Of a stretch of 41,285 nt of DNA, positions 10,566 through 32,944 are shown piece by piece. The DNA is from Bacteroidales bacterium (GTDB taxonomy: Bacteria > Bacteroidota > Bacteroidia > Bacteroidales > UBA3824), in NCBI GenBank assembly GCA_016286055.1, contig JAEERW010000022.1, positions 1-41,285 on the forward strand, in the 5' to 3' direction. The notes under the pieces were generated by a model, which did not search any database, was not told the DNA's origin, and saw nothing but the letters and a program-made list of their open reading frames with translations. The first letter of the stretch is position 1; every line of letters starts with the position of its first letter. The translations under genes and the position numbers were made by a program.

Positions 10566-10613
10566 ATCCCCATTTTTAGGTATTGCACCAATCTTTCTAT
10601 CCCACTACCTTTG
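10566..10613 (+). promoter_or_regulatory. Shared-regulon promoter 1 (WG-repeat gene)
   Basis: The 18-bp dyad ATCCCCATTTTTAGGTAT (10566-10583) shares its last T with the -33 TTG (10583-10585); a 20-bp spacer leads to TACCTTTG (10606-10613). The same 48-bp layout occurs five more times in the window. Confidence 0.75.
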
Positions 10614-10627
10614 CATTGAATTTTTTA

Positions 10628-10713
10628 AAGCAAAACACTAATAGTGATAGTGACTAATTTAGGGCGTGTTTAAGCACACGTCCTTGTTTAAGAAAACTTA
10701 ATGAACAGTGTTC
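10628..10713 (+). promoter_or_regulatory. Leader copy A: conserved hairpins and TetR-type operator
   Basis: After the promoter come cacta-N7-tagtg, then the hairpin agggcgtg (10661-10668) / cacgtcct (10677-10684) with loop tttaagca, then the dyad GAACA-g-TGTTC (10703-10713). The whole block recurs at 12737-12825 with a compensating stem change (agggcgtg versus aggacgtg opposite cacgtcct). A further hairpin CGGCAC (10725-10730) / GTGCCG (10742-10747) follows only in this copy. Confidence 0.65.
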
Positions 10714-10872
10714 GGTATTTAATCCGGCACATCACGCTAACGTGCCGCGTTGTTCGGGGTTATTGTTCGGTTTTTAAATATAATCATCGTGGCGCCAAAG
10801 ACAGCTTTCTCTGCCGCTCTCTTTGGTACAATTTTTGCAACTTTTCTCTTTAAACTATAAACCCAAGACTAA
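10714..10872 (+). other. Unique part of the WG-gene 5' leader
   Basis: It holds the CGGCAC/GTGCCG hairpin, two gttcgg direct repeats (10752-10770 area), and a ccaaag...ctttgg inverted repeat around 10796-10826. No ORF is seen. The mRNA leader from the 10606 promoter would be about 250 nt. Confidence 0.4.
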
Positions 10873-12597
10873 ATGAAAGAACATACGATATATCTCAAAA
10901 TAAATAACCAATACTTTGCTTTCCTTATATCAGCTTTGCTATTTTTAGTAAGTACCGAAGGTCTTGCCCAAAGTGCCACTGACCTGTTGAACCAAATGTC
11001 TGGATACTCGGATTTAAATGTTCCTCCCCCAAGCGAGCCTGTGTGTGCCATTTGCCGTATTCCTATGCGTGGTGTTGTCCGTCCTTGGGATCACCGTAGT
11101 TGGTGCGACTGCTATCGACCCGCACCAGAAACGCAGACACGGCCGCAAAGCGACAGCCGCACAGTGGATTACAATGCTGATGAAAGAAGCAATTATGCTC
11201 GAGTTACTTACCCGCCGCAACAGGTGGAAGTCTATGTGCCTCCGACCCCCATCCGCGACACGCCGGAAGGTCAGGCACTTCTATCGGTTGCAGAGCAATT
11301 AGGTTATGCGGTGGGGAATATGGTGTTCGAGGGTTTTAGAAACCTGTTCGCAAGGAAATTCGAAAAGACTTACGAAACAGCGCACCGCGAGTATCATTCC
11401 TCCGCTCCTGAAAAAGGTTGGGGGTCCACTCAGGTTGTGAAGGAAAACGGAAAAGAAGGCGTGTGGGACAATGCGACACACAAATGGTTGGTCAATCCAG
11501 GTAAATTCGACGAATTCCTGCTTTTGGACGGCTACTGCTGCGCAGCAAGGAAAAACGGCAAGTGGGGAGTGATCGATGCTACGGACAAAGGCCGTGAGTT
11601 GGTATCATGTACGTTTGATGAGGTTTTGTTCTATACCCGCGGCGGAACAGGCTCTCCCATTGGACTCGCTGTCAGAGACCAGGGCGGCAATATGCACTGG
11701 ATAATTGGCCGTATAGTACTTCAGAACGGCACTTTTTCATTCGTCCCCTACGAAGGGGAATGGTGCAGCGTGGACTTTTCTTTCAAACCAATACCTGACG
11801 ACGATGAGATTATGGTAATCGTGGCCAAAGATGCCAAAACAGGCAAGACAAAGGTTTTGGACTACTCCACAAAAACTATTTTCGGTCGCTTCGATGAGCA
11901 ATATGAAAACGTGTTTCTTACCAATATGGTGGAGTCAAAGTCCGTTGGAAACGTCGACACTTGGTATGACTTTTATCGCGTAGAAAACAACGGAAAGATG
12001 GGGTTTGTTGTATCGCAGAGTGCGGCAGATTATAAAAGGCGTTACGATTCTTACGAACTTCTCCCCTGTGAGTACGACGAGATTACTCCTATGACCAATG
12101 TCATCGGATGGAAGGAGGCCGCGCGCTGGGGAAGTTCAGTCTTTTCATATAAAGGTAAAGAATTGGTCATAGCAGAGAAAGACGGGCACTTCGGAGTCGG
12201 TACACCGTCTAGTTTCAAGAATGAACAGAAACTACCCTACAAAGAAGCTTCTGTGATGAGAATACCTTTTGGCACCACCAAATTTCCTGTAATTATGTGC
12301 GTAAAACTCGACGGGTGCTATGTTCCGACGCATCCGGACGGCAGCAAATTATGGTGGCACAAGCCCGACGGCTACACCGAGGACGGACGGCAGAAATTGT
12401 TGTACACCATAGTGGAAGGCTATGACCTCGCTGAAGTGATGGATGAAATTCAACAGCAGTTCCGCGCCAACCCTAAGAATTGGAATCTCACCGACGATGA
12501 GATCAAAATTTTATTGAGTACACCCCAAAAAGACAGTTTTTCGGATGGCGAAACCCGTAGTCCACAAACCGATAGTAGTCCTCGCAAAAGGCGGTAA
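10873..12597 (+). CDS. Secreted WG-repeat protein with Cys cluster
   Basis: 574 aa. A signal peptide (hydrophobic 13-32, cleavage near LAQ-SA) makes it exported. Residues 58-80 have CAIC...CDC, a C-x2-C-x16-C-x-C set that could bind a metal or form disulfides. The body has WG-type repeats (ENGKEGVWD, KNGKWGVIDATDKG, NNGKMGFV, KDGHFGVG), which form a beta-propeller-like surface in other proteins. The C-terminus is polar and basic (SPRKRR). Base composition is visibly richer in GC than its neighbours, and the gene is bracketed by two ~155-bp related leader/promoter segments, so it looks inserted between the TetR gene and the RND operon. Function is unknown; the promoter suggests it belongs to the same starvation response. 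Confidence 0.8.
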   Translation: MKEHTIYLKINNQYFAFLISALLFLVSTEGLAQSATDLLNQMSGYSDLNVPPPSEPVCAICRIPMRGVVRPWDHRSWCDCYRPAPETQTRPQSDSRTVDYNADERSNYARVTYPPQQVEVYVPPTPIRDTPEGQALLSVAEQLGYAVGNMVFEGFRNLFARKFEKTYETAHREYHSSAPEKGWGSTQVVKENGKEGVWDNATHKWLVNPGKFDEFLLLDGYCCAARKNGKWGVIDATDKGRELVSCTFDEVLFYTRGGTGSPIGLAVRDQGGNMHWIIGRIVLQNGTFSFVPYEGEWCSVDFSFKPIPDDDEIMVIVAKDAKTGKTKVLDYSTKTIFGRFDEQYENVFLTNMVESKSVGNVDTWYDFYRVENNGKMGFVVSQSAADYKRRYDSYELLPCEYDEITPMTNVIGWKEAARWGSSVFSYKGKELVIAEKDGHFGVGTPSSFKNEQKLPYKEASVMRIPFGTTKFPVIMCVKLDGCYVPTHPDGSKLWWHKPDGYTEDGRQKLLYTIVEGYDLAEVMDEIQQQFRANPKNWNLTDDEIKILLSTPQKDSFSDGETRSPQTDSSPRKRR

Positions 12598-12676
12598 TTT
12601 TTTATATTTTCGGTATTTTGTCGGTGGCAAACTTATAACACGCAATCCCTAAAAAATGTAAATAGACCGAAGAAAA

Positions 12677-12724
12677 ATCCCTATTTTTCGGTATTGCACC
12701 TTTATTCTTATAGCCCTACCTTTG
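12677..12724 (+). promoter_or_regulatory. Shared-regulon promoter 2 (RND/ABC operon)
   Basis: ATCCCTATTTTTCGGTAT (12677-12694), -33 TTG (12694-12696), 20 bp, TACCTTTG (12717-12724). Confidence 0.75.
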
Positions 12725-12736
12725 CAGCGGATTTTT

Positions 12737-12825
12737 TAAAAGCAAAACACTAATAGTGATAGTGACTATTTTAGGACGTGTTTAAGCGCACGTCCTTTTT
12801 AAAAACAAGTTGCCGAACAGTGTTC
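12737..12825 (+). promoter_or_regulatory. Leader copy B: hairpin with T-run and TetR-type operator
   Basis: aggacgtg (12773-12780) / cacgtcct (12789-12796) is a perfect 8-bp stem with loop tttaagcg and is followed by T5, so it resembles an attenuator. The dyad cGAACA-g-TGTTCg (12815-12825 core) follows. The unchanged gcaaaacactaatagtgata stretch is shared with copy A. Confidence 0.65.
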
Positions 12826-12885
12826 GTTATTATAAAGAAAATCTGATAAACTGATTAGTAATAAACAAAAAAAACTTAAAATAAT

Positions 12886-15240
12886 ATGAACATCGAAAAG
12901 ATAAATTCTAAGTTCCGTTTGTTCGGACAATTTGTTGTTAATCACCGCTTAATGGTGTTGATTATCTTTGCCGCTTTACTCGTGTTTTCTGTTGCAGGAT
13001 TAAAGCGTATCTATTTTGAAACATCGTTCGACACCTATTTTGTTAAGGACGACCCGATGCTTTTAAAAACCGACGAGTTTAAGAGCATTTTTGGCAACGA
13101 CTATTATGTGGCTGTGCTTGTGGAAAATAAGGACGGCCTTTTTAACAAGCCTACTCTCGAACTTGTGCGCGAACTAAGCAACGAACTTATGGACAGTCTT
13201 GCTTATTCCGAAAAAATCACCTCGCTCACCGACCTTGAATTTATGGTGGGTACCGACGAAGGTATGGAACTCCAACAGATTGTGCCTGAGGAAATTCCCG
13301 ACACAAAAGAGGGACTCGATTCTATCCGCGCCAAGGCATACAGCAAGGAGTATGTGTCGAAAAAACTTGTGAGCAAAGACGGCACAATGTCGTGGATTTT
13401 GGTAAAACTCCGCCCTTATCCTGCCGACAGTGTTTGGCGAGCGGAGGGTCTTGAAGCACCTGAAAACCAAACAGGTCGCGAGGCTATAAATATCTGTTTT
13501 AAAGATAAATACAAGCCGCTCAACCCTAAAATTGCAGGTATGCCGTATATGAATTACGCCAAGGCGCAGTATATCAAGCAAGAGATGTCGCGACTGATGA
13601 TGATTGCAATTATTGTTGCGCTGATAGTTATGGCGTTGGTTACAAGGTCGTTGCGTGGCGTTGTGATTCCGATTTTAACTTCGATTTTTGCTTTGATAAT
13701 TGCGATGGGCATAATCGGTTGGCTGGGTCTCTACCTTGATATGAGCACCACAATGATAACTGTAATGTTGGCTTTTGCCGTGGCAATTGCTTATAATATA
13801 CACGTTTACAGTTTCTTCCGGGCGCAATTGCTCAAACTTCACGACCGCAAGCAAGCCGCCATCGACGCTATTGCAGAAACCGCCTGGCCTGTGATTTTTT
13901 CGGGAATCACCACAATTGCCGCTATGATGACTTTCCTTGCTATGAACATTGTTCCGATGAAGGCAATGGGCATAAATTCCGCATTAGCAATCACTTCGGT
14001 GTTGGTTTCTATTCTTGTGATTTCGCCTGTGCTGCTTTCGCTTGGACACCGCACTGCTGCCGACAAGGAGTTCAACACTTCGTTTGAGGGGCGTTCGGCT
14101 AATTTCTTTGAACGTTTTGGCGAATTTGTCCTTTCACATTCTAAGAAAATTATTGTTATATCTTCCATAGTTACAGTATTTTGCGCTGTTGGCGTAAGTT
14201 GGATCGAACCTGCTTTTGATGTGGAACGCTCTATGGGCAGAAAGGTAGAATATGTGCGCAATTTTCTTGAACTTTGCGATACCGAACTTGGCACTATGTA
14301 TTCGTATGATTTAATGGTGGTTTTGCCCGATGAAGGTGATGCCAAAAATCCTGAAAACCTCATTAAACTTGAAACTCTTGAACACGAGGTAGAAAACTAT
14401 CCGCTTACAAAACGACATTCGTCGGTTTTGGATATTATTAAGGATATGAATTGCACTTTAAACAGCAATGATACAGCATTTTATCACGTTCCCAACAACA
14501 ACGAGGCTGTGGCTCAGTTGCTTCTTCTTTACGAAAACGCAGGTGGCTCAGAATCAGAATATTGGATGGATTATGAATACCGCCGTCTGAGGTTGCAAAT
14601 CGAAATCTCAAACTATAATTCTAATGAAATTGAAATTGAGATGAACCGTCTTCAAGACCGAGCCAAAGAGTTGTTCCCTAATGCTGCCGTTTCTGTGGTA
14701 GGCAACTTGCCGCAATTCACTGTTATGCAGCAATATCTAACACGCGGACAGATGATGTCGATGATTCTTTCGGCTTTGATTATCGGTGTGCTTTTGATGA
14801 TAGTTTTTGGTAATATCCGCCTTGGATTGATAGGTATGATTCCAAACCTTGCGCCCGCCGTATTTGTCGGTGGATTAATGGGTTGGCTCGGTTATCCGCT
14901 CGATATGATGACCGCTTGTATCATTCCTATGATTCTTGGTCTTGCAGTTGACGACACTATTCATTTTGTCAACCACGCTCATCTTGAATTTTCGCGTCAA
15001 CGAAATTATACACACTGTGTAAAAGCCACTTTCCGTGTGGCAGGATTGGCTATTGTGATGACCACAGTGATAATTTGCGCCACATTCCTCGGTTTTTCTA
15101 TTTCAGATGCTATTCAGTTTGCTCACTTCGGCACTCTCGCCGTGTCGGGTCTCTTGTCGGCTCTTTTGGCTGATTTGTTTATCACTCCGTCTTTATTTAA
15201 GTTGCTGAAAGTGTTTGGAAAAGAGGAAGTTGAAAATTGA
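12886..15240 (+). CDS. RND-superfamily exporter (MMPL/COG1033 type)
   Basis: 784 aa with the two-fold RND layout: TM1 (~22-39), a large periplasmic loop, TM2-6 (~236-385), TM7 (~417-437), a second loop, then TM8-12. This is the shorter MMPL/COG1033 class, not the ~1050-residue AcrB class. The TM4-equivalent of the second half has GLAVDDTIHFVNH, with the acidic pair expected for proton coupling; the first half has AVAIAYNIHVYSFF and lacks the acids. Such exporters move lipids, hopanoids or other hydrophobic compounds and are often encoded with DUF1329/LolA-like and DUF1302-type partners, exactly as here. It is the first gene of an operon reaching 21233. Confidence 0.9.
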   Translation: MNIEKINSKFRLFGQFVVNHRLMVLIIFAALLVFSVAGLKRIYFETSFDTYFVKDDPMLLKTDEFKSIFGNDYYVAVLVENKDGLFNKPTLELVRELSNELMDSLAYSEKITSLTDLEFMVGTDEGMELQQIVPEEIPDTKEGLDSIRAKAYSKEYVSKKLVSKDGTMSWILVKLRPYPADSVWRAEGLEAPENQTGREAINICFKDKYKPLNPKIAGMPYMNYAKAQYIKQEMSRLMMIAIIVALIVMALVTRSLRGVVIPILTSIFALIIAMGIIGWLGLYLDMSTTMITVMLAFAVAIAYNIHVYSFFRAQLLKLHDRKQAAIDAIAETAWPVIFSGITTIAAMMTFLAMNIVPMKAMGINSALAITSVLVSILVISPVLLSLGHRTAADKEFNTSFEGRSANFFERFGEFVLSHSKKIIVISSIVTVFCAVGVSWIEPAFDVERSMGRKVEYVRNFLELCDTELGTMYSYDLMVVLPDEGDAKNPENLIKLETLEHEVENYPLTKRHSSVLDIIKDMNCTLNSNDTAFYHVPNNNEAVAQLLLLYENAGGSESEYWMDYEYRRLRLQIEISNYNSNEIEIEMNRLQDRAKELFPNAAVSVVGNLPQFTVMQQYLTRGQMMSMILSALIIGVLLMIVFGNIRLGLIGMIPNLAPAVFVGGLMGWLGYPLDMMTACIIPMILGLAVDDTIHFVNHAHLEFSRQRNYTHCVKATFRVAGLAIVMTTVIICATFLGFSISDAIQFAHFGTLAVSGLLSALLADLFITPSLFKLLKVFGKEEVEN

Positions 15241-15300: not shown

Positions 15301-15304
15301 TACT

Positions 15305-16078
15305 ATGAAAAAAATATTATTAGCAATTGCAGTTTTGATGGCTGCGTATTCGGTTGATGCTCAAAGCCTTTCTGGTAGAGACATTATTAAAAAAGTAAAG
15401 GATAATCCTGATGGTGATACTCGCTATTCAAAGTTGGATTTGGTTTTGGAAAAGTCCAACGGTTCAAAACGTGAACGCAAGGTGGAATCTTGGGCTATGG
15501 ACATAGGCGAGGATACCAAGACGATGATGTTTTTCACCTATCCCGGCGATGTTAAGGGTACGGGTTTTCTCACTTGGAACTACGACGAAATTGGCAAGGA
15601 CGACGACAAATGGCTCTATATGCCCGCCCTCAAAAAGACCCGCCGTATCAGCGGAAGTTCCTCTAAAACAGACTATTTTATGGGTACTGACTTCACTTAC
15701 GACGATATGGGAGACCGCAACATCGATGAAGACGATCACAAGTTTTTAATAATGGAAACAATCGATGGTAAAGAATGTTATGTGGTTGAATCTGTTCCCA
15801 AGGATAAACGAGAAATATATTCAAAACGCATTTCGTGGATTCGCAAAGATTGTTTTATGGGCGTAAAAGTGGAGTATTATGATAAACTTGGCAAACTTCA
15901 CAGAGTATTGAACATCAGCGATATAAAACAAGTTCAAGGTTTTTGGACTCGCGGCAAAATGGTGATGGAAAACGTTCAGACCAAGCATAAAACAGTTCTT
16001 ACTTTTTCTGATATTAAATACAATTTGAAGATTGATGCAGATTTGTTTACAGTTTCTAAATTAGAAAAAGGTTTGTAA
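15305..16078 (+). CDS. LolA-like outer-membrane lipoprotein-sorting family protein (DUF1329 type)
   Basis: 257 aa with a signal peptide (cleavage near VDAQ-S, residue ~19-20). The mature protein follows the LolA_like pattern of RND-linked periplasmic proteins: [13 protein letters not shown] at the start, [21 protein letters not shown], then [34 protein letters not shown], a segment strongly conserved in this family. The fold is a half-barrel with a hydrophobic cavity. It probably receives a hydrophobic substrate from the RND exporter and carries it to the outer membrane. It lies between the RND gene and the DUF1302-type barrel, with only a 1-base gap to the latter. Confidence 0.85.
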
Positions 16079-16079
16079 A

Positions 16080-17306
16080 ATGAAAGTACTTTTTTTCTGT
16101 CTTTCAATGATATTCTCCGTCGCAGCGTTTGCACAAGACGGCGACGGAGATTTCAAAGTAAAAGTCAAGGGTTTTGCCGACACTTACCACGCCGTAAGGT
16201 GCGATAAACCAAATGATTGGATGTCGTCACGTACAAGGCTTAGAGGCGAACTTTCTTTGGCTAAAAACCATACTGAACTTTTCTTTTCGGCGAACGCTGT
16301 TTACAATACCTTAATTAGTGATTATTCTGGTTTTAAAATCCGTGAACTGTTTGTTTCTCAGACTTTTGGAGGTTTTGAACTCCGTGCTGGGCGACAGATT
16401 ATCACTTGGGGGGTAGCAGATGCTTTGCGCCTTACCGATTTGGTGTCGCCGATGGATTACAGCGAGTTTCTTGCGCAAGATTACGACGATATTCGCATTC
16501 CCGAAAATGCTTTGCGTTTGAAGTTTTCAAAAAATTCGTTTTCGGCTGAGGCATTGGCAGTTCCTGTAATTGAAACATTTGATTTGCCAATAGATGTCCG
16601 CAATCCGTGGGCAATCTCAATCACTGGCAACGATTCAATTATTGCTGACGAAAAACCCGATTTCAAAATCGAAAATATGGAGTTTGGCGGTCGCCTATCG
16701 TGGTTTCTAAGTGGAGTAGATTTTTCGTTATCGGCATTGCGGACTTACAACAAAATGCCGGTTTATTCAATTCTCTATCTCTCACCAAATGAGAAACTTA
16801 TTGCAATTCCGCAGCACGAGCGGATGACAATGACGGGTTTTGATTTTTCTGTTCCTCTTGGCAAGTTTGTGTTCCGTGGTGAATTTGCAGAATATTTCAA
16901 TGAGGCTCAGCAACCTGTGGTTAATGTTGCTCCCGTATCAAAAAACACTTCCAATGCCCTTCTCGGCATCGACGTTTATCCCGGAGGTGATTGGAATCTC
17001 AGTTTTCAGTATGCCCACAAGTACATCGCAAGTTACGATGCGGCAGTCATCAACGGTTATCGCAACTCAGGAACGGCAACGGTCAGAGTTTCAAAAGATT
17101 TGTTCCGTTCCACCCTCAATATCAACACCTTTGCCTATATCGACGTAACCAACGGCGGAGTTTACGACCGAACAACGTTCGACTATGCCGTCAACGATAT
17201 GATGCACATCTCGCTCGGTTTTGATTATTTCAACGCCGATAAAGGAACATTTAAAATGTACGACAAAAATACCGAGATTTGGGCTAAGGTCAAAGTTAGT
17301 TTCTGA
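16080..17306 (+). CDS. DUF1302-type outer-membrane beta-barrel protein
   Basis: 408 aa, signal peptide to about FAQ-D (residue 19). The mature protein is a string of beta strands, with LRAGRQIITWGVADALRLTDLVSPMDYSEF as the DUF1302-like signature, and ends in a strand closing with Phe (IWAKVKVSF), the usual outer-membrane barrel end. RND + LolA-like/DUF1329 + DUF1302 genes recur together in many Gram-negatives, and this barrel is likely the outer-membrane station of that path. The start codon comes 1 base after the stop of the LolA-like gene. Confidence 0.8.
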   Translation: MKVLFFCLSMIFSVAAFAQDGDGDFKVKVKGFADTYHAVRCDKPNDWMSSRTRLRGELSLAKNHTELFFSANAVYNTLISDYSGFKIRELFVSQTFGGFELRAGRQIITWGVADALRLTDLVSPMDYSEFLAQDYDDIRIPENALRLKFSKNSFSAEALAVPVIETFDLPIDVRNPWAISITGNDSIIADEKPDFKIENMEFGGRLSWFLSGVDFSLSALRTYNKMPVYSILYLSPNEKLIAIPQHERMTMTGFDFSVPLGKFVFRGEFAEYFNEAQQPVVNVAPVSKNTSNALLGIDVYPGGDWNLSFQYAHKYIASYDAAVINGYRNSGTATVRVSKDLFRSTLNINTFAYIDVTNGGVYDRTTFDYAVNDMMHISLGFDYFNADKGTFKMYDKNTEIWAKVKVSF

Positions 17307-17333: not shown

Positions 17334-17714
17334 ATGGACAGAAAAATTAAAATTATTGTATTTTGGATTCTCACAATTGGAGGATTTCTAACTCACACAT
17401 TAACAGACGCAATGCCCGCTTTTTGGGGAGAAAGTATTGCCGCTATGCAACCACCTGCATCTACGGGTATGATTTCATTTATGATGATTTTTACCTATTT
17501 ACTACCCACAATTGCCATTCTGTTAGTTATTTATGGAGGAAAAACTTGTAAAACAATTAATGCTGTTTTGGCTTGCATAATGGCACTTTTTACAGTTTTT
17601 CATATGTCTGAACTCATTGAAGAGTTCAATGCTGCTCAACTTGTAATTATGCCTATGATGGCTGTAATTGCTATGATTATGGCAAAAGAATCTTTTAAAC
17701 TCAGAAAAGAATAA
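17334..17714 (+). CDS. Small four-helix membrane protein
   Basis: 126 aa, four predicted membrane helices (8-25, ~46-66, ~74-92, ~100-117), no signal peptide. I do not recognise the family. Its stop overlaps the start of the first ABC gene (TAATG), so it is translationally coupled to it and may be a small subunit or modulator of the ABC transporter. Confidence 0.75.
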   Translation: MDRKIKIIVFWILTIGGFLTHTLTDAMPAFWGESIAAMQPPASTGMISFMMIFTYLLPTIAILLVIYGGKTCKTINAVLACIMALFTVFHMSELIEEFNAAQLVIMPMMAVIAMIMAKESFKLRKE

Positions 17715-19483
17715 TGAAAAATAAATCAAATCTTCTAAGATTGATGGATTTTGCAGGTGGTTATAAATTTTTTACCATCGGCTCCATCGTTTTGGCTGCG
17801 GTGAGCGCGTGTCTTGCGCTTGTTCCATTCGTTTATGTTTGGAAAATTGTGGACGAAGTGCTTACTGTAATGCCCGATTTTAGCAAGGCGCAACACATTG
17901 AAGATTACGGTATTACAGCCGTTAAATATTCAGTAAACGCAATGTGCATCTACTTTATGGCGTTGGCGTGTTCGCATTTGGGAGGATTCCGAACTGTGGC
18001 AAATATCCGCAAAAAATGCGTTGCCAAAGTGCTCCGTATGCCCTTGGGACACGTTGAAAATGAGGGTAGTGGCAAAATTCGTAAAATCATCGTTGATTCA
18101 ACCGCGGCTATGGACAATTATCTCGAACATATTTTGCCCGACCGCACGGTGGCTATTACCACGCCAATTGCAATGATTACACTTTTGATGTATTTTGATT
18201 GGAAAATTGGCCTTATGTGCCTTGCAACCACTATTTTAGGTTTTATAATTATGTATGCCTTTATGGTGGGTCCGCAACTAAAAAAAGATATGGAGGCTTA
18301 TAATATCGCTCTCGAAAATATGACCAAGGAAGCCGTTGAATATGTGCGCGGTATGCCGGTTGTAAAGACCTTTGGACAGTCGGTTTTTTCATTTAAAAAA
18401 CTCAAAAAGGCTATCGACGATTATGCCAAGTTTACAATTAGTTACACCGAGCGTTTCAGGGTTTCGATGACCTCGTTTACGGTTGTAATCAACTCTGCGT
18501 TTGCAATTTTGATTGCCGTTGCGCTCTATTATGGTTCTTCTTCCGCCGATCACGAATTTTTCTCTAACCTGATGTTCTATATAATTTTTACGCCAATTAT
18601 CGGTGTAACTCTCCACAAAGTGATGTACTCGTCGGAGGCGGATATGATTGTGGGAAACGCATTTGCAAGGATTGACACAGTTCTTGATGTTCCCGAAACC
18701 AAAGAATCCAATAATCCAAAAATTCCTAATGATTTTTCAGTGGAGTTTAGCAATGTAACATTCCGTTACCAAGATTCAACCAAAAATGCTGTTGATGGAA
18801 TTTCTGTGAAAATACCCGCAGGTTCGCAAGTTGCATTTGTTGGACCTTCGGGAGGCGGAAAAACCACCTCAGCAAGTCTTGTATCTCGGTTTTGGGATGT
18901 TACTGATGGCAAAATTTTAATAGGTGGAGTTGATGTAAAAGATATTCCGCAAGCAAAACTTTCCGAAATTGTCTCGTTTGTTTTTCAGGATAGCAAATTA
19001 TTGAAAACAAGCATTTTAGACAATGTAAGAATGGCAAAACCCGATGCCACAGAGCAAGAGGTAATGGATGTTTTGAACCGTGCTCAATGTGCCGACATTA
19101 TTGCCAAATTGCCTGACGGAATCAACACAATTATCGGCAGCAAAGGCACTTATCTCAGCGGTGGCGAACAGCAACGCATTGCTATTGCGCGAGTTATGCT
19201 ACGCAACACTCCAATTCTTATCCTCGACGAGGCTACTGCATTTGCCGACCCCGAAAACGAGGAAAAAGTGTTGAAGGCTTTTGACGAAATATCTAAGGAT
19301 AAGACAGTTATCAAAATTGCACACCGTCTTTCTACTGTTGTTGACTGCAATCAAATTTTCGTCCTCAACGAAGGCAAAATCATAGAAAATGGTACACATC
19401 AGCAACTTATATCGCAAAACGGAATGTATTCAAAGATGTTTGGCGATTATCAGAAATCGGTGGAATGGAAAATTATCAATTGA
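17714..19483 (+). CDS. ABC transporter, fused permease-ATPase, first subunit
   Basis: 589 aa: six-helix type IV exporter-fold membrane domain (~20-310) and C-terminal nucleotide-binding domain. Walker A GPSGGGKTT (377-385), signature LSGGE (481-485), Walker B ILILDE (501-506) and the switch His in KIAHRLST are all intact. The D-loop reads AFADPE (509-514) in place of SALDxE, a feature I associate with the siderophore-type pairs (IrtAB/YbtPQ class). With the next gene it should form a heterodimer. The regulon promoter and position suggest import or export of an iron-related or hydrophobic small molecule. Confidence 0.85.
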   Translation: MKNKSNLLRLMDFAGGYKFFTIGSIVLAAVSACLALVPFVYVWKIVDEVLTVMPDFSKAQHIEDYGITAVKYSVNAMCIYFMALACSHLGGFRTVANIRKKCVAKVLRMPLGHVENEGSGKIRKIIVDSTAAMDNYLEHILPDRTVAITTPIAMITLLMYFDWKIGLMCLATTILGFIIMYAFMVGPQLKKDMEAYNIALENMTKEAVEYVRGMPVVKTFGQSVFSFKKLKKAIDDYAKFTISYTERFRVSMTSFTVVINSAFAILIAVALYYGSSSADHEFFSNLMFYIIFTPIIGVTLHKVMYSSEADMIVGNAFARIDTVLDVPETKESNNPKIPNDFSVEFSNVTFRYQDSTKNAVDGISVKIPAGSQVAFVGPSGGGKTTSASLVSRFWDVTDGKILIGGVDVKDIPQAKLSEIVSFVFQDSKLLKTSILDNVRMAKPDATEQEVMDVLNRAQCADIIAKLPDGINTIIGSKGTYLSGGEQQRIAIARVMLRNTPILILDEATAFADPENEEKVLKAFDEISKDKTVIKIAHRLSTVVDCNQIFVLNEGKIIENGTHQQLISQNGMYSKMFGDYQKSVEWKIIN

Positions 19484-26171: not shown

Positions 26172-27497
26172 TTATTTATTTCTCCATCCAACGGGGAAAG
26201 CATTGTGATATTCAACAATTTCGCAATCGTCAGTAGAATTGTTAGTGTCTTTGTAGCCTTCGGCATCGCTGCCCTTGCGCTGAACCAAAAGACCTGAATG
26301 GCAACCTTTTACAAGTTGTTTGCCACGGTCTACGCTTTGGGGAAGAGGATTTGTAACGATGTCGGAAGGAATGTGTCCTGTGGTGATTCCGTCGAGAATA
26401 AGGTCGGCTTTAACGCTGAGCATTTGTATTTCTACATTGTTGTTTTCCTTATCTTTAACAGTTGCAACCGAAGTGTTGGCAGCAAAAAATTCGTCGAGAG
26501 TAGCCTGTTCGCCGTTTTTGAGTTTGAAGATAAACGGGCAGTAGAATCCGCGGGGATGTTGGTAAAATCCACCTATGCCGCCAAAGTCGTTTTCGGCAGG
26601 GTAAATCTCCTTAACGTTAGGCACTTCGGGATTGTCAACATCGCTTGTATAGAGTTGCGGGTCGTAGATTTCAAAATCGGCACCCGAAAGGTCAACCGCA
26701 TTTTCGTATTTGTATGTAACAGTGCGTTTTTCGCCTGTTGCCTCGTCGGTTTCTTCATACGAACCCTCGGTTTCTTTGTGGTTTTTGGCTGTGAAAGCAA
26801 TCACAAGTTTTTCGTGAGGTTTAACTGGATGCTCGTAGCCCGAACCCGGAATAACAATGATACCGTGTACAGGCACTTTTCCGGCGTTGTAATACTCATC
26901 GTACCAACTCTCTTTTTCGGTGCAAGAAGCCTGCATTGTGCAGCCGATAGCGAGACCGTCGGCATAGAGAATGTTGCTTGTGGGGTTGTAGAGCACCATA
27001 TATTGATCGGGGTGCATCATACGTCCCGCATTACGCTCGCCATTAAAAAATACCTCAGAGAAGATAAACTGATAGTCAGATTGTTGTGCAACAGTTGCAA
27101 TCAGTTTTACATCAATTGTTTGGTTTTCATCCTTGATGGTAACGTTTTCTTTGCGTACAAAGATTGTTTTGCCATCAACAGTTTTTTCAAGACTTACGTC
27201 GTAATTGCCTATTGGAATGTAAATTTTAACCTTTCCGTTGGCGTTTTCGTCCAAAGTCTCTTTTTTGATATCAAAAGTGTAAGTGTCTTTTGACTGAACA
27301 GATGTGAGAGTGATAGTGCAACCGTCTAATTCTGTGCTTGATACAGCACCGTCAACGTCGGAAGCGAGATTTACAAAAGCATCGATTCCGCTGTACGAAT
27401 AACCATTGTTGTCGTCGTCGTCGTCGCACGAAGATAGCGCAATGCTACCGCCTGCCATTGCCAATGCAACGGCATAATTGATAATTCTATGTTTCAT
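26172..27497 (-). CDS. DUF4876 surface lipoprotein
   Basis: 441 aa. The signal ends in LSSC with Cys24, followed by DDDDDNN, the acidic stretch that sends Bacteroidota lipoproteins to the cell surface. Residues ~35-130 look like a beta-sandwich (Ig or prealbumin-like), and the core from ~145 (IFSEVFFNGERNAGR, then DQYMVLYNPTSNILYADGLAIG) matches DUF4876, whose members accompany TonB receptors. A substrate-capturing surface partner of the 23295-26093 receptor is the likely role. The gap of 34 bp to the preceding gene supports one transcript. Confidence 0.8.
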   Translation of the reverse strand: MKHRIINYAVALAMAGGSIALSSCDDDDDNNGYSYSGIDAFVNLASDVDGAVSSTELDGCTITLTSVQSKDTYTFDIKKETLDENANGKVKIYIPIGNYDVSLEKTVDGKTIFVRKENVTIKDENQTIDVKLIATVAQQSDYQFIFSEVFFNGERNAGRMMHPDQYMVLYNPTSNILYADGLAIGCTMQASCTEKESWYDEYYNAGKVPVHGIIVIPGSGYEHPVKPHEKLVIAFTAKNHKETEGSYEETDEATGEKRTVTYKYENAVDLSGADFEIYDPQLYTSDVDNPEVPNVKEIYPAENDFGGIGGFYQHPRGFYCPFIFKLKNGEQATLDEFFAANTSVATVKDKENNNVEIQMLSVKADLILDGITTGHIPSDIVTNPLPQSVDRGKQLVKGCHSGLLVQRKGSDAEGYKDTNNSTDDCEIVEYHNAFPVGWRNK

Positions 27498-27531: not shown

Positions 27532-28167
27532 TTATTTAAAACATTCGGATTTTCCGTCTTTCATACATTCGTCGGCAGATGCTGTGGCTTCGGGGTCGTT
27601 TTTCTTAACGCAGCAATCGGCAAATTTTACTGATTCTAAATAATATTGAGGATAATAATCCTGATTATGCGATGCCATCCAATCTTTTTTTTCTTGATTT
27701 GCAATCTTGGTGTTTTCGATTTTGGCTTTGATATTTTCGCACATTTTCAAAGATGCCGAATCAGATTTAGCCTCAAATTCGGCAAGACGGTTTTCTAATT
27801 TGATAATTGTGCTGTCTAAATCGGTCTGAGTTATCTTATTGACTCTCAGCACGCCTGTGATATTGGCGTTTTTGTTTAAAAGACATTGGTTAAACTTAGG
27901 AATATCGCCGCCTGCAACCACATAAAGAGTGGCGGTTGTGTCTTGAATATCGGTAAAAGTGATATTACTGCCGCAATGGCAAACACGTGTAACTTTTGCC
28001 TTTACTTTCACTTCCTTGTCAACAAGGTATTCGGCTGAATCTAAGAGAGTTTTGGGCGAATAAACGCCCTTGCAGCAATCTTTGCCGCTCTGATTTTGGT
28101 TTGAAGAACTATTGCAGGCAACAAACAGCGCTGCAATCATCAGGCTTGTAGTAATAATCTTTTTCAT
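27532..28167 (-). CDS. Cys-rich lipoprotein, OB-fold-like, first gene of TonB operon
   Basis: 211 aa. Lipobox FVAC, Cys18. Mature residues include CC (31-32), CHC (63-65) within KVTRVCHCGSNITFTDIQD, C near 95, and further Cys near the C-terminus (ADCCVKK, DECMK, SECFK). The central part (VKVKAKVTRVCHC...ATLYVVAGGD...NITGVLRV) reads like an OB-fold strand series, followed by a helical segment. The many Cys and the CHC motif suggest metal or haem binding, or disulfides. I do not recognise the exact family. Its promoter carries the shared 18-bp dyad. Confidence 0.75.
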   Translation of the reverse strand: MKKIITTSLMIAALFVACNSSSNQNQSGKDCCKGVYSPKTLLDSAEYLVDKEVKVKAKVTRVCHCGSNITFTDIQDTTATLYVVAGGDIPKFNQCLLNKNANITGVLRVNKITQTDLDSTIIKLENRLAEFEAKSDSASLKMCENIKAKIENTKIANQEKKDWMASHNQDYYPQYYLESVKFADCCVKKNDPEATASADECMKDGKSECFK

Positions 28168-28197
28168 TGTGTGTTACATTTGTCATTTTTTACGCTG

Positions 28198-28245
28198 CAA
28201 AATTATGCAGCCGAAACAACCTCTGCAATCACTTAAAATGGGGAT
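28198..28245 (-). promoter_or_regulatory. Shared-regulon promoter 3 (Cys-rich lipoprotein/TonB operon)
   Basis: On the minus strand ATCCCCATTTTAAGTGAT (28245-28228), -33 TTG (28228-28226), 20 bp, TAATTTTG (28205-28198). This is the weakest right half-site of the six (AAGTGAT instead of TAGGTAT). Confidence 0.7.
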
Positions 28246-28351: not shown

Positions 28352-28359
28352 TATCTTTG
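28352..28359 (+). promoter_or_regulatory. -7 element for small membrane protein
   Basis: TATCTTTG fits TAnnTTTG and lies 35 bp before ATG 28395. A TTG is found 17 bp upstream, shorter than usual. Confidence 0.5.
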
Positions 28360-28394
28360 TCGCCAACATTTTAATCTACTAAATATTAACAATT

Positions 28395-28721: not shown

Positions 28722-28724
28722 TCC

Positions 28725-29477
28725 TCACCCCATCACCACATCGAGCACCATCATCATTGCAAATCCGATTGCAAATCCGATTGTTGCAACGTTGGAGTGT
28801 TCGCCTTGGGAGGCTTCGGGGATGAGTTCTTCTACAACTACGTAGAGCATTGCGCCGGCGGCAAAGGGTAGGAGATAGGGCATTGTGGCTGTGGCTGCCG
28901 ATGCCAACAAAAGTACCAACGCGCCGCCAATAGGTTCTACAATGCCGCTGAGACTGCCCACCAAAAAGGCTCTTAAACGGCTGTTGCCTGCGCTGCGGAG
29001 TGGCATCGAAATTATTGCGCCTTCTGGAATGTTCTGAATAGCAATGCCTAACGACAATGCCAACGCGCCCGCCGTGCTGAAATCTGACGTTACCGCGCCC
29101 GCAATTGCCACGCCCACAGCCATTCCCTCGGGAAAATTGTGAATCGTTACCGCCAACGCCAACATTGTGGTACGCGAAAGATGGCTCTGCGGACCCTCGT
29201 GTCCGCCTTTTGGGTGAATGTGCGGCGTGATGTAGTCGATGAGCAAGAGGAACGCAAATCCGCCCAAAAATCCAATCACCACGGGCGTGATGTTGCCCAT
29301 ATCAATTGCCGGAATCAGCAACGACCACACCGACGCCGCCACCATTACGCCCGAGGCAAATCCAAGTAAGATTTTTTGGAAAAGTTCGGGCATATCTTTT
29401 TTCATAAAAAACACAAATGCCGACCCCAAAACCGTGCCGGCAAATGGTATCAAAAGTGCTGTTAAAATGGCTTCCAT
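28725..29477 (-). CDS. ZIP-family metal transporter
   Basis: 250 aa, eight helices. The metal-site motifs HNFPEG (113-118) and QNIPEG (148-153) are intact, and a His-rich loop (HIHPKGGHEG) lies between TM3 and TM4. This is the GufA/ZupT-like branch. ZIP proteins bring zinc, iron or manganese into the cytoplasm. The start overlaps the stop of the P-type ATPase gene by 1 base (TAATG), so the two proteins are made together. Paired with a compartment-loading ATPase, it could supply cytoplasmic Fe2+ or Zn2+. Confidence 0.9.
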   Translation of the reverse strand: MEAILTALLIPFAGTVLGSAFVFFMKKDMPELFQKILLGFASGVMVAASVWSLLIPAIDMGNITPVVIGFLGGFAFLLLIDYITPHIHPKGGHEGPQSHLSRTTMLALAVTIHNFPEGMAVGVAIAGAVTSDFSTAGALALSLGIAIQNIPEGAIISMPLRSAGNSRLRAFLVGSLSGIVEPIGGALVLLLASAATATMPYLLPFAAGAMLYVVVEELIPEASQGEHSNVATIGFAIGFAMMMVLDVVMG

Positions 29478-31561
29478 TAATCTATCCTCCTCATTGCGCT
29501 CATACTGATTGCCACGGTTGATGCGTTGTGAAGCAATGCGGCGAGCGACGGTGAAATTATGTTTGCCAATCCGCCGAGTATTAGCATCGAATTTACGCCG
29601 ATAATTGCATCGTTGTTGCCTTTGATTCTGCGTTTTAGATTGCGGCCAATTTTCATAAGTTTGGGTAATGAAGATAGTCCGTCGTCGGGTAGCATAATGT
29701 CGGCTGTCTGACCTGCAATCGACGACGCTTTGCCCATTGCAATGCCAATGTCGGCGGCTGAAAGTGCGGGTGCGTCGTTGATGCCGTCGCCAACCATAGC
29801 CACGGTGCGTCCCTCGGATTTCATTTGTTTTACGTATGCAACTTTCTGATCAGGAAGAGTTTGCGCATAAAATTCGGTAATACCAGCCTCGCGAGCCACA
29901 GCCTGAGCCGTTTTTTCGCCGTCGCCGGTTATCATTACAATATTTTTAACGCCCGCCTGTTTCAAAAGTTTTATCGCCTCTACCGAATCTTGACGGATGA
30001 AATCTTTTATGGCAATAAGTCCCGCAAGTTCCTCGCCCTCAGAAAAATAGAGGATAGAATCGCCTGTTTCGCCAAGTTCGTCGATGTAATGCTGAGCCTC
30101 GTCGGTGAGCGGAATTTTTTCATCATCAAAGATAAAATGTGCCGATCCGATGCGGAGTTTTTTGCCGTTGATTGACGATGCAACTCCGTGAGCCAAAACG
30201 TATTCCACTTTGGTATGTTCCTCCTCGTGAATGAGGTTTCGGTTTTGGGCTTCCAACACCACTGCACGAGCCAAAGAGTGCGGAAAATGTTCTTCCAAAC
30301 AAGCCGCCATTTTTAATACCTCGTTTTCATTGCGTCCGCCCAATGGAATAATGCGCGAAACCTTTGGTGTTGCCTCAGTTAGCGTTCCTGTTTTGTCAAA
30401 AACAAAGGTGTCAACTTCGGATATAAGTTCTAAGAATTTTCCACCTTTTACAATAATGCCGTTTTGTGCGCTGTCTCTCATTGCCGAAAGCACGCAGATT
30501 GGGGCAGAAAGTTTCATTGCGCACGAATAATCCACAAGCAAAGTTGACATCGCTTTTGTGAAATTTCCAGTGGCAAAATAGGTGGCGGCGGCAAGCAAAA
30601 AGTTGTATTTAACCAAGTGATTTGCAATACGTTCGGCGTTTACTTGCGACGCGGCTTTTAATGCTTGCGAATTGTCGATAAGCGACACAATTTGGTTGAT
30701 TCTTGTCTCTTTTCCTGCCGATTTTACGCTTACTACGATTTCGCCGTCTTCCACAATTGTGGATGCAAACACGCCAGAACCTTCCTTTTTTTCCACTGCC
30801 AACGGTTCGCCGGTCATTGATGATTGGTTTACCATTGCCAAACCGCTTACAACAGTGCCGTCGGCAGGTATTACGCCTCCGATTCGGCAAATTACGCGGT
30901 CGCCTTGTTTGAGGTTTTTGGTTTGTACTTGAATCTCTTGTCCGCTGTCGGTGAGCACGTTAACCACTTCCTCGGTGTTGAGGAGCGAGTGCGCAAGGTT
31001 GTCGTAAGATTTGCGTTTGATGTAATCTTCCAAAACTTCGCCGATGCTGAGCAAAAACGAAACCGAACCCGCAGTTTTGATGTCGCCGCTGAAATAGGAG
31101 AATCCCAAGGCTGTTGCATCAAGCACGTCGGCACAGAAAATTTTGCCGCCAATAATGCTCTTTGCTCCGTTGTAAAGTCTTGGTGCAATGTTGATTAACT
31201 GCAACGCCTTGCGAATTGGAAACGGCAGCAACTTTTTTATATAATGTCGCACCACCATTTCCGAAAGTATCGAAAACAACGACGGCTGCGGAATGTCGAG
31301 CGGATTAACGCTGTCAAGAAGTTCCTGATTTTCAAGGTATCGGTGGTCTAACAGTCGGAAATACGCCAAAACTGTTTCTTCGCTAACACCTACGTAATGT
31401 ATTAATACACTGCCCGTTGTGGGATTGATTTCAACAGATGTTATACCCATCTGTTCTTCCACGAGCGACTTTACCAACCCTGCTTGAACAGGCGTAAGCG
31501 AGTGTCTGTCGTAACGGATTCTTACCCGTCCGGGCAGCGAATGTGCTATTTTAAAGTCCAT
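29477..31561 (-). CDS. P1B-type ATPase, ferrosome FezB-like (P1B-6 class)
   Basis: 694 aa. Residues 1-75 form an HMA_2-like domain that lacks the CxxC of copper ATPases and begins HSLPGRVRIRY. Catalytic elements are TGEP (250-253), DKTGT (389-393) and GDGIND near residue 620. The TM metal motif is SCAMKLSAP (346-354) in place of CPC or SPC, and the HP locus reads FPHSLARA. This set, with a small DUF6110-like protein in front, is what I know from FezB ATPases of ferrosome loci, which load iron into a lipid-bounded store. The upstream regulon promoter and the divergent flavodoxin gene also point to iron. A cation exporter for another metal is the alternative. Confidence 0.8.
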   Translation of the reverse strand: MDFKIAHSLPGRVRIRYDRHSLTPVQAGLVKSLVEEQMGITSVEINPTTGSVLIHYVGVSEETVLAYFRLLDHRYLENQELLDSVNPLDIPQPSLFSILSEMVVRHYIKKLLPFPIRKALQLINIAPRLYNGAKSIIGGKIFCADVLDATALGFSYFSGDIKTAGSVSFLLSIGEVLEDYIKRKSYDNLAHSLLNTEEVVNVLTDSGQEIQVQTKNLKQGDRVICRIGGVIPADGTVVSGLAMVNQSSMTGEPLAVEKKEGSGVFASTIVEDGEIVVSVKSAGKETRINQIVSLIDNSQALKAASQVNAERIANHLVKYNFLLAAATYFATGNFTKAMSTLLVDYSCAMKLSAPICVLSAMRDSAQNGIIVKGGKFLELISEVDTFVFDKTGTLTEATPKVSRIIPLGGRNENEVLKMAACLEEHFPHSLARAVVLEAQNRNLIHEEEHTKVEYVLAHGVASSINGKKLRIGSAHFIFDDEKIPLTDEAQHYIDELGETGDSILYFSEGEELAGLIAIKDFIRQDSVEAIKLLKQAGVKNIVMITGDGEKTAQAVAREAGITEFYAQTLPDQKVAYVKQMKSEGRTVAMVGDGINDAPALSAADIGIAMGKASSIAGQTADIMLPDDGLSSLPKLMKIGRNLKRRIKGNNDAIIGVNSMLILGGLANIISPSLAALLHNASTVAISMSAMRRID

Positions 31562-31782: not shown

Positions 31783-31808
31783 TGTTATTATGTTTTAAAA
31801 ATTTTACA

Positions 31809-31856
31809 CAAAGTTACGGTGCGGCAATGAAAAACGGAATACCTAAAAGTAATGAT
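31809..31856 (-). promoter_or_regulatory. Shared-regulon promoter 4 (ferrosome-like operon)
   Basis: On the minus strand ATCATTACTTTTAGGTAT (31856-31839), -33 position TTC (31839-31837), 20 bp, TAACTTTG (31816-31809). It is divergent from promoter 5. Confidence 0.7.
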
Positions 31857-31949
31857 TTAACTTCGTTTTCGGCTTTAAGACTAATTATTATTGGGGATAG
31901 TGTATCAAAAACACTCAATCGCAAACTTTTGGTATTACATATTTTTTAA

Positions 31950-31997
31950 ATACCGCTTTTTCGGTATTGTGTGATAATTGTGTTGAATCTAATTTTG
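31950..31997 (+). promoter_or_regulatory. Shared-regulon promoter 5 (flavodoxin)
   Basis: ATACCGCTTTTTCGGTAT (31950-31967) has the most complete dyad, ATACCG-N6-CGGTAT. The -33 TTG (31967-31969), 20 bp and TAATTTTG (31990-31997) follow. A weaker half-matching copy (cttttggtat) occurs at about 31926-31935. Confidence 0.8.
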
Positions 31998-32022
31998 CGC
32001 CAAAATTTAAAACAAAATAACA

Positions 32023-32520
32023 ATGAAAAAAACTGTAATAATTTACGGCTCTACAACGGGCAATGCCGCCAAAGCGGCTGAAACTATCGCAGCAAAACTC
32101 GGCGGTGGTGATGTTAAAGAGGTTTCCTCTGCAAAAAAGTCGGATCTTGCTGATTACGACAACATTATCCTCGGTTCGTCTACTTGGGGCGACGGTGAAT
32201 TGCAAGACGATTGGTTCGGTTTTATTTCCGAAGTTAAATCTGCCAACCTTAGCGGCAAAACTGTGGCTGTATTTGGTGTTGGTGACCAATTTTCTTACTC
32301 AGACACATACGTGAACGCTATGGGCGAACTCTACGAAGCCGCAAAATCTGCCGGTGCAAAAATCGTAGGCGAAACTTCTACCGACGGTTACTCTTTTAGT
32401 GAATCTTCTGCTGTAAAAGACGGAAAATTTGTTGGTTTGGCTCTTGATTACGACAATCAGGATCAACTTTCTGAAAGTCGCATTGAAGCATGGACAGCAC
32501 AGATTATACCTGAACTATAA
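32023..32520 (+). CDS. fldA: Flavodoxin, long-chain type
   Basis: 165 aa. The FMN phosphate loop is GSTTGNAAKAAE (residues ~9-20), and the isoalloxazine loops are SSTWGDGELQDDW and VFGVGDQFSYSDTY. The inserted loop near 120-140 makes it long-chain. Flavodoxin replaces ferredoxin when iron is short, which fits the divergent iron-type operon and the shared promoter module. It is followed after 19 bp by a DUF2023 gene. Confidence 0.95.
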   Translation: MKKTVIIYGSTTGNAAKAAETIAAKLGGGDVKEVSSAKKSDLADYDNIILGSSTWGDGELQDDWFGFISEVKSANLSGKTVAVFGVGDQFSYSDTYVNAMGELYEAAKSAGAKIVGETSTDGYSFSESSAVKDGKFVGLALDYDNQDQLSESRIEAWTAQIIPEL

Positions 32521-32539
32521 TAATTTAACGGTTGCACAA

Positions 32540-32881
32540 ATGAAAGTACTATCGCATCATATTTACGAATACAAAAAAGGACTTAGAAAACTTATTCTCC
32601 ATACTTTACCATCCAAATTTAGGTTTGAAGCCGAGGCAGGATTGAGATTTGCCGGCATCGACTTCCTCACACGACAAGTCTCGCCCGAAAAAATAAATAT
32701 TTTTTTTGGAGCAAAAGAGTGCATTGAGGTTATCAAACATATTGGCGATAAGCCCTTTAACGAGTACACACCCGAAGAAGATTTTATACTCGGCGTACTG
32801 CTCGGCTACGACAAAATTCAGGAGTGCAACCGTTATCTTCATTTATGCAACAAACAAACTATTATGAAAAAATCAGCGTAA
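32540..32881 (+). CDS. DUF2023 family protein
   Basis: 113 aa from ATG 32540; a longer open frame upstream of this ATG overlaps the flavodoxin gene and is not used. The order MKVLSHHIYEYKKGLRKLIL, INIFFGAKECIEVI, then TPEEDFILGVLLGYDKIQECNRYL is the DUF2023 pattern. The family sits next to flavodoxin genes in many Bacteroidota and Epsilonproteobacteria, so a role with flavodoxin or in iron limitation is likely; the biochemical function is unknown. Confidence 0.9.
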   Translation: MKVLSHHIYEYKKGLRKLILHTLPSKFRFEAEAGLRFAGIDFLTRQVSPEKINIFFGAKECIEVIKHIGDKPFNEYTPEEDFILGVLLGYDKIQECNRYLHLCNKQTIMKKSA

Positions 32882-32896
32882 GATTACCACTAATAA

Positions 32897-32944
32897 ATCC
32901 CTATTTTTAGGTATTTCTAATCTGATACAACCTCTCTAATTTTG
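32897..32944 (+). promoter_or_regulatory. Shared-regulon promoter 6 (TonB receptor/XusB-like operon)
   Basis: ATCCCTATTTTTAGGTAT (32897-32914), -33 position TTT (32914-32916), 20 bp, TAATTTTG (32937-32944). The start codon is at 32962. Confidence 0.75.

Follow-up and report, generated by a model that had tools for sequence, protein, structure and literature searches.

The contig JAEERW010000022.1 of a Bacteroidales bacterium (assembly GCA_016286055.1, genome G000 below), whose full 41,285 nucleotides form the window of this study, carries six promoters that share an 18-bp dyad set against the -33 triplet. Our analysis suggests that a Bacteroidales regulon for iron starvation has this dyad, here called the box, as its operator, and that the box is probably read by a hemerythrin-linked GerE (LuxR-type) regulator of the CdhR kind, most likely working through class II activation. 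The six promoters are the following:

10566..10613, + strand: box promoter 1, with the dyad at 10566-10583, TTG, 20 bp and TACCTTTG; upstream of the gene of a 574-aa protein
12677..12724, + strand: box promoter 2; upstream of an MMPL/LolA/ABC operon
28198..28245, - strand: box promoter 3; upstream of a 211-aa protein/DUF4876/TonB/DUF6850/FMN-binding operon
31809..31856, - strand: box promoter 4, with the triplet TTC and the weakest dyad; upstream of a P1B-ATPase and ZIP gene pair
31950..31997, + strand: box promoter 5; upstream of the flavodoxin gene fldA
32897..32944, + strand: box promoter 6, with the triplet TTT; upstream of a TonB receptor/DUF4374 pair

A previous reading of the window made from its sequence only (the sequence-only reading) had placed six repeated modules at these coordinates, and they indeed share one geometry and align without gaps over 56 bases. 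The 20-bp gap between the -33 triplet and the TAnnTTTG element is exact at all six sites, and the last base of the dyad is the first T of the triplet, as had been described. The claim of an 18-bp dyad holds in a weaker form: the dyad is present but imperfect, being self-complementary at 8-12 of its 18 positions, and at 31856(-) only its right half is good. Its consensus is AATACCTATTTTTAGGTATT, with the core ATACC-N8-GGTAT. The triplet is TTG in four of the six sites (TTC at 31856(-), TTT at 32897), and the positions T24 and T25 are invariant across 76 aligned box sites, those of G000 included. Two further promoters, at 7305 and 8385, which had been said to lack the dyad, fall outside the top 15 places of a matrix scan of the window.

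With leave-one-out matrices, the held-out window sites rank third to sixth among 82,460 positions, with scores reached in none of 20 shuffled windows. An independent matrix was obtained from 15 promoters of genes encoding a hemerythrin-GerE fusion protein, which were reached via that protein and not via the window sites. With this matrix, five window sites occupy ranks 1-5 of 82,460 (scores 28.0-37.2, shuffle maximum 8.9), and 31856(-) ranks seventh (14.8), after an opposite-strand reading of 32897 (16.1). When the -7 element was removed from the same matrix, the five sites still scored 16.6-22.0, above all shuffles (at most 14.9); 31856(-) scored only 9.1, below that shuffle maximum. A matrix made from 19 sites of other families places the six window sites at ranks 1-6 (35.0-48.9, shuffle maximum 16.6), but it is not independent because those sites had been detected with a model of the six. 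A second matrix, of 32 sites, combined these 19 with 13 of the 15 fusion-gene promoters and was later split into the two groups. The bare pattern TTG-N19..21-TAnnTTTG is uninformative alone: it matches 987 times, and its reversed form 307 times.

The regulon had been proposed to be local, which does not hold: further boxes occur on other contigs of the same genome and in its relatives. A profile built from the six window sites (R1), run over all of G000, gave 29 places with E<=10. Its best matches were the six window sites (E<=9.2e-8), and ten places in all were used; those left out include C24:217507 (E=0.023), C26:114793 (0.043), C26:205773 (0.10) and C26:125713 (0.11). At C24:218561(-) a box with 19-bp spacing (E=6.6e-5) precedes a gene fusing FeoA and FeoB (domains FeoA, FeoB_N and FeoB_Cyto), and at C36:191539(-) (E=0.002) another precedes a porin gene, behind which the same strand carries genes for a di-haem oxidoreductase (PF06537) and an imelysin (PF09375). 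Two weaker places were accepted through comparison with relatives and not through their E-values. One, at C36:185114(-) (E=0.159), has a dyad without mismatch, ATACCTAATTTTAGGTAT, and stands before the hemerythrin-GerE gene located farther along the same strand; the other, at C26:205710(-) (E=1.42), has the correct geometry and precedes a small-RNA gene.

Beyond G000, R1 matches (E<=0.001, with stricter filters) were found in 37 of 147 genomes, G000 included, and in 16 of the 18 genomes of its genus. From these we collected 76 distinct sites scoring at least 27 (own genome included; loci L012, L013, L018, L030 and L035-L103). Their target genes were named by Pfam on representatives, by BLAST to the window proteins (30 downstream proteins match one) and by single-linkage clustering; the tally covers the collected loci, and R1 places for which no locus was fetched were left unclassified. 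Porins are the most frequent target (14 sites, one cluster together with the porin of the imelysin operon of G000), followed by FeoAB, TonB receptors and a small RNA (9 each), flavodoxin (6), P1B-ATPase (4) and MMPL (3). Two sites each precede genes of DUF4876 type, of LolA-like proteins, of ABC transporters, of relatives of the 211-aa protein and of hemerythrin(-GerE) proteins, and single sites precede genes for ZIP, DUF2023, DUF4374, OprB and a gene following the regulator. As R1 knows only the 56 bases, the iron character of these targets is a separate line of evidence, and the recurrence of the box in other genomes, where it stands before genes for FeoAB, flavodoxin, TonB receptors, ZIP and P1B-ATPase, strongly supports the idea of an iron regulon advanced in the sequence-only reading. 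A spread over unrelated housekeeping genes is mostly not seen: seven of the 76 sites could be assigned neither to an iron-type gene, nor to a shared operon, nor to the small RNA and are unassigned or unexpected, among them a pyruvate-formate-lyase-type gene and a SpoIIE/PAS protein.

A similar picture emerges from six isolates, all of which carry the fusion gene. They were scanned with a second profile (R2) built from the six sites plus 70 others (d=0 sites scoring at least 29, plus fusion-gene promoters, with near-duplicates removed). At E<=0.05, it finds 7 sites in Prevotella sp. ne3005, 9 in Marseilla massiliensis An819, 10 in Prevotella sp. khp7, and 14, 13 and 17 in Prevotella aff. ruminicola Tc2-24, P6B1 and MA2016, respectively. 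We read 30 of these 70 places, four of which had served to train R2. Five of the 30 are the fusion gene itself, and they comprise the four training sites. Pfam assigns downstream genes to a TonB receptor (L277), a SAM-methyltransferase (L279), uroporphyrinogen decarboxylase (hemE, L280), an HMA protein (L296), a flavodoxin (L298) and a TetR protein (L300). The protein downstream at L301, which has no Pfam match, is a porin by likeness; the remaining places were read by eye, and a few lack a clear gene. Published low-iron stimulons include SAM-methyltransferase, TetR/MMPL/LolA/ABC and flavodoxin loci (PMC10434189).

Downstream of nine of the 76 sites no gene is convincing. These sites are followed instead by a conserved unit of about 100 nt, with the invariant core TTTGATTGTTTGTTTGATTTTTTT and then a hairpin and a T-run, which is probably a small RNA under control of the box. 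On the basis of this core and a terminator behind a box, we place such genes at the following loci:

L030, L045, L054, L072, L087, L088, L091, L092, L094 and L316-L329: predicted small-RNA gene

The core is exact in 12 of the 18 genomes of the genus and has one mismatch in two more; at all 14 of these loci a box with 20-bp spacing starts 88-100 bp before the core. None of the 129 other genomes has the exact core, and 11 of them have matches with one or two mismatches (a reversed-pattern control gave such matches in 5 of 147). An Rfam search of seven loci at E<=1 returned no match at the RNA position. The stem of the terminator is conserved; one of its pairs is compensated, two others are each disrupted in two sequences, and covariation is weak. 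By analogy, this RNA may be a counterpart of RyhB and would spare iron as RyhB does. Like RyhB, IsrR and other iron-sparing RNAs, it is a short RNA gene with a terminator under the promoter of an iron regulon; unlike them, its exact core is confined to one genus among the 147 genomes and its regulator is another than theirs. It would be an iron-sparing RNA under a non-Fur regulator. In G000 the core has 21 antisense matches (at most three mismatches), one of which is its own locus; the reversed core has 14, so that no clear excess is seen. As a lead only, we noticed that AAACAAACAAACAAACAAA at position 1501 of L259 (C26:77369, - strand, of G000), 30 nt before an open reading frame (ORF) that by eye appears to encode an Fe-S scaffold protein, could pair with the RNA core.

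Two box sites outside the genus led to the candidate regulator. In G137 (E=6.6e-8) a box stands before a hemerythrin gene that is followed by a LuxR-type (GerE) gene, and in G042 (E=1.7e-5) before a gene for a single protein with both domains. A search with the G042 protein recovered the fusion in G000 through a match at C36:184131-185081(-); the gene, at C36:184131-185087(-), encodes PF01814 (E=8.6e-13) and PF00196 (E=2.5e-17) in one protein. A perfect dyad (10 of 10 positions) lies upstream of the fusion gene in G000, G004, G007, G010 and on contig C202 of G017, and was not found in that position in G015 or on contig C22 of G017. From 553 relatives of the fusion we kept the best 80, whose records are labelled Prevotella, Prevotellaceae, Bacteroidaceae, Bacteroidales and, once, Marseilla, many of them from ruminants; three of these loci (L175, L176 and L177) appear to be contigs of G017 and G007. 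In 23 of the best 80 loci, ATACC lies exactly 40 bp upstream of TAnnTTTG, which is the geometry of the window, and 200 Markov resamplings gave this form by chance at 0.01 loci on average and at one locus at most. In another 39 of the 80 the distance is 55-56 bp.

For the fusion protein, AlphaFold2, run with 30 sequences (pLDDT 82.3, pTM 0.64), predicts a bundle of helices, one long helix and a helix-turn-helix (HTH) domain made up of four helices. The top Foldseek matches, all with probability 1.00 but with E-values of 9e-3 at best, are YtfE, RIC of S. aureus and LuxR-type DNA-binding domains. In profile comparison, the C-terminus matches VraR, FixJ and NarL, and residues 104-219 match YtfE. 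H88, H131, E135, H209 and E213 are invariant in 16 fusion sequences, and H164 nearly so. All but H88, which is outside the aligned stretch, align with YtfE chains over residues 104-219. The fusion sequence contains the di-iron ligand pattern H, HxxxE, H, HxxxE of RIC/YtfE. The likeness to the repair proteins RIC, YtfE and ScdA lies in the hemerythrin fold and in this H...HxxxE...H...HxxxE pattern; unlike them, the candidate is joined to a DNA-binding domain, and it misses the cut-off of the RIC family model TIGR03652 (56.6 bits against 204.7). Because this score is so far below the cut-off, we consider the fusion RIC-like and not a RIC protein.

Within the genus, the candidate regulator comes in two forms that replace each other: six of the 18 genomes have the fusion, seven have a stand-alone GerE protein of about 200 aa, and none has both. 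The GerE domain of the stand-alone protein is 53-63% identical to that of the fusion, and in the stand-alone protein of G003 (L154) no receiver model matched at E<=0.001. Its gene follows the apparent end of a TonB receptor gene in G003, G006, G008 and G014. Neither form is seen in five genomes (G002, G005, G009, G011 and G012). Two of these, G009 and G011, jointly lack the box, the regulator and the small RNA; a Fur match is weak in G009 and absent from G011. The co-occurrence of box and regulator in the genus (13 of 16 genomes against 0 of 2, p=0.065) is suggestive only. We also noticed a hemerythrin-type gene without a DNA-binding domain beside an apparent arginine decarboxylase gene at L134-L138 (G013, G016, G003, G006 and G014) and at L165 (G001). 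It occurs in species with the stand-alone GerE protein, and in G001 it is followed by a further GerE gene (43% identical). It could encode the missing sensor partner of the stand-alone protein.

The position of the box indicates how the regulator might act. Bacteroidetes promoters are numbered by their -33 and -7 elements, and a centre near -41.5 is the classical place of a class II activator. Counted from the first T of the -33 triplet, the dyad is centred about 8.5 bp upstream and therefore, if the usual numbering holds, at about -41/-42. Since this is a class II position, binding at low iron and recruitment of the polymerase appear most likely. GerE activators such as NarL recognize palindromes of the TACYYMT-N2-AKRRGTA kind, which the box consensus fits at 15 of 16 positions by eye. 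The box resembles the class II sites of NarL/FixJ regulators, both in the GerE domain (PF00196) assigned to it and in a palindrome with TAC...GTA ends whose predicted place is near -41.5; the difference is that the fusion has a di-iron hemerythrin-type domain where a receiver domain would be. In G000, the protein that joins a RIC/YtfE-like domain to a GerE domain would read the dyad, and in most species of the genus without the fusion the stand-alone GerE protein, with its receiver-like N-terminus, would take its place. When iron is low, the regulator would bind the box and recruit the housekeeping RNA polymerase. The box position and the published role of CdhR, described as an activator of the hmu iron/heme operon (PMC10101095), favour such an activator.

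One can go further and suppose that a hemerythrin di-iron activator does the job of Fur and replaces it in Fur-less members of the group. Once its iron site is empty, the LuxR-type domain would bind ATACC-N8-GGTAT at -41.5 and turn on its own gene as well as iron uptake, flavodoxin and the RyhB-like, iron-sparing RNA. We put this fuller scheme forward tentatively, as possible rather than probable. Should the hemerythrin domain act as the gauge, a bacterial iron regulon would be using a new principle of sensing. In mammals, FBXL5 is a hemerythrin iron sensor, of which the regulator would, if the scheme is true, be a bacterial counterpart acting directly on DNA. The question is directly testable: operator and promoter geometry are defined, there is a candidate family of regulators, and cultured strains of Prevotella type have both box and regulator.

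Several observations weigh against an iron-sensing activator of this kind. The counts at fusion loci are not independent events, because of the kinship among these 80. A distance of 55-56 bp is found at 39 loci, of which 26 also fit an oppositely facing promoter; two other distances recur among the 80, namely 101 bp at 11 loci and 69 bp at 4, and the fusion gene of G000 itself has a distance of 54 and not 40. G012 (92% complete) has six boxes and no regulator that we could find, unless its assembly misses the gene, and G002 and G005 also bear boxes with neither form seen. The stand-alone GerE protein of seven species has no hemerythrin domain, which leaves the iron sensor unexplained there. 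Relatives of the protein (either domain, E<=1e-6) occur in 139 of the 147 genomes and the box (R1, E<=0.001) in 37, so that, at such sensitivity, presence of the family is no predictor of the box. Some targets fit poorly or were unexpected: the pyruvate-formate-lyase-type gene follows a single box, and a strong box (E=4.6e-8) precedes enolase at L288 in Prevotella sp. MA2016. Fur is also present in part of the genus and in 26 of the 37 box-bearing genomes. Finally, a review calls CdhR a negative regulator of mfa1 (PMC7482874).

This last statement would suit a model in which the same GerE regulator is a repressor whose iron-loaded form covers the -33 region and releases it at low iron. The overlap of the dyad with the triplet, including the invariant T24 and T25, would also fit a repressor site. 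Against it stand the description of hmu as CdhR-activated, the predicted class II position of the centre and the lack of TTG at two of the six window sites, as expected of promoters that depend on an activator. We consider repression unlikely. We give a similarly low probability to the idea that a different regulator reads the box and that the hemerythrin-GerE gene is just another target. The box-bearing genomes with neither regulator form and the breadth of the protein family beyond the detected box would be accounted for in this way. However, the regulator genes that recur behind the box belong to the hemerythrin-GerE family, apart from the TetR gene of one operon type; the fusion and the stand-alone protein replace each other in the genus; the two genomes without the box also lack the regulator and the RNA; and the dyad resembles the 7-2-7 sites of NarL type.

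The sequence-only reading had favoured a regulator of Fur or DtxR type 'or novel', and the last of these terms now seems nearer the truth. The targets are those expected of Fur: flavodoxin, feoAB, TonB receptors and a small RNA recall the Fur regulon, the same genes are under Fur elsewhere, and a Fur domain (PF01475) is found in 124 of the 147 genomes. Within the genus, the match is strong in five genomes, weak in five (E=4.7e-5 in G000) and absent from eight. However, 11 of the 37 box-bearing genomes have no PF01475 match (G003, G005, G008, G012, G013, G015, G016, G103, G108, G117 and G139, the last inferred from its absence in the match table); their completeness is 61-99%, and five are at least 97% complete. 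The C-terminal domain of DtxR (PF02742) has no match in the 18 genomes of the genus, and among the 11 Fur-less genomes only G103 has one. Ten box-bearing genomes thus match neither Fur nor DtxR, three of them being incomplete (G005 61%, G015 84% and G108 74%), which makes both proteins poor candidates. Absence of Fur is commoner among box-bearing genomes (11 of 37) than among the remaining ones (12 of 110; p=0.016, kinship not corrected for). The regulon also differs from that of Fur in being likely activated instead of repressed. We consider it very unlikely that a Fur- or DtxR-type metalloregulator reads the box. Least credible of all is a local repressor role of the TetR protein (9921-10538) at all six dyads, as its gene adjoins promoter 1 but boxes on other contigs, and in several families, precede feoAB as well as porin and small-RNA genes, and another perfect palindrome, GAACAGTGTTC, in the leaders of promoters 1 and 2 (10703 and 12815) would suit a TetR protein better.

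The hemerythrin-linked activator that we prefer has known relatives in domain make-up. In Porphyromonas gingivalis, CdhR (PG1237) and its hemerythrin partner PG1236 combine the two parts in split form, as do BT0519-BT0520 of Bacteroides thetaiotaomicron, and PIN17_RS10465 of Prevotella intermedia is fused as in G000 (PMC10434189). Expression of cdhR and of its partner gene increases when iron is scarce, which also holds for fldA/DUF2023 and the TetR/MMPL/LolA/ABC locus, and published iron stimulons contain the kinds of operon found here behind the box. That source describes both the split pair and the fused form as iron-responsive by an unclear mechanism, and the regulation of iron genes in Bacteroidetes as scarcely known (PMC10434189). 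Several species of the genus studied here differ from the CdhR systems in using a GerE protein that lacks hemerythrin. Both CdhR and the iron stimulon have been published before. In the literature that we searched, outside which the primary CdhR papers lie, we found no description of the box, its promoter geometry, a regulon of CdhR type or the small RNA. As far as this search goes, the box and its fixed place in the promoter, a regulon that spans several families of the order, its occurrence without Fur or DtxR, and the small RNA are new.

Domain matches in the window confirm the genes said to be served by the six promoters, namely flavodoxin, two TonB operons and an MMPL (RND-type)/LolA/ABC operon; those behind promoter 4 encode a P1B-ATPase and a ZIP transporter. 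The order behind promoter 2 is MMPL, LolA-like, DUF1302, a small ORF and two ABC transporters. An Rfam search of the window gave nothing above any gathering score. The genes are:

9921..10538, + strand: TetR-family regulator (PF00440), adjoining promoter 1 and rejected as reader of the box
10873..12597, + strand: 574-aa protein without Pfam or NCBIfam match, behind promoter 1
12886..15240, + strand: MMPL (RND-type) transporter (PF03176), behind promoter 2
15305..16078, + strand: LolA-like protein (PF17131)
16080..17306, + strand: DUF1302 protein, by domain match
17714..19483, + strand: ABC transporter, by domain match
19596..21233, + strand: ABC transporter, by domain match
27532..28167, - strand: 211-aa protein without Pfam match, first gene of the promoter 3 operon
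26172..27497, - strand: DUF4876 protein, by domain match, promoter 3 operon
23295..26093, - strand: TonB-dependent receptor (plug, CarbopepD_reg_2), promoter 3 operon
21691..23298, - strand: DUF6850 protein, by domain match, promoter 3 operon
21304..21678, - strand: FMN-binding domain protein, by domain match, promoter 3 operon
29477..31561, - strand: P1B-type metal ATPase, by domain match, behind promoter 4
28725..29477, - strand: ZIP metal transporter, by domain match, behind promoter 4
32023..32520, + strand: flavodoxin FldA, by domain match, behind promoter 5
32429..32881, + strand: DUF2023 gene (flavodoxin partner), by domain match
32962..35079, + strand: TonB-dependent receptor, by domain match, behind promoter 6
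35141..36364, + strand: DUF4374 protein, by domain match, behind promoter 6

The leaders of promoters 1 (10612-10872) and 2 (12723-12885) share a stretch of about 100 nt with those of the MMPL genes of three relatives (L041, L080 and L082). This strongly conserved stretch contains an attenuator-like hairpin followed by T's and the palindrome GAACAGTGTTC, of which a near copy, GAACATTGTTC, lies at 13944 within the MMPL gene. It is possibly an attenuator together with the operator of the adjoining TetR protein. At the left end of the contig, the genes of a Z1-domain protein (2971-6279, - strand) and of a WYL-domain regulator (7352-8254, + strand) are unrelated to the iron genes.

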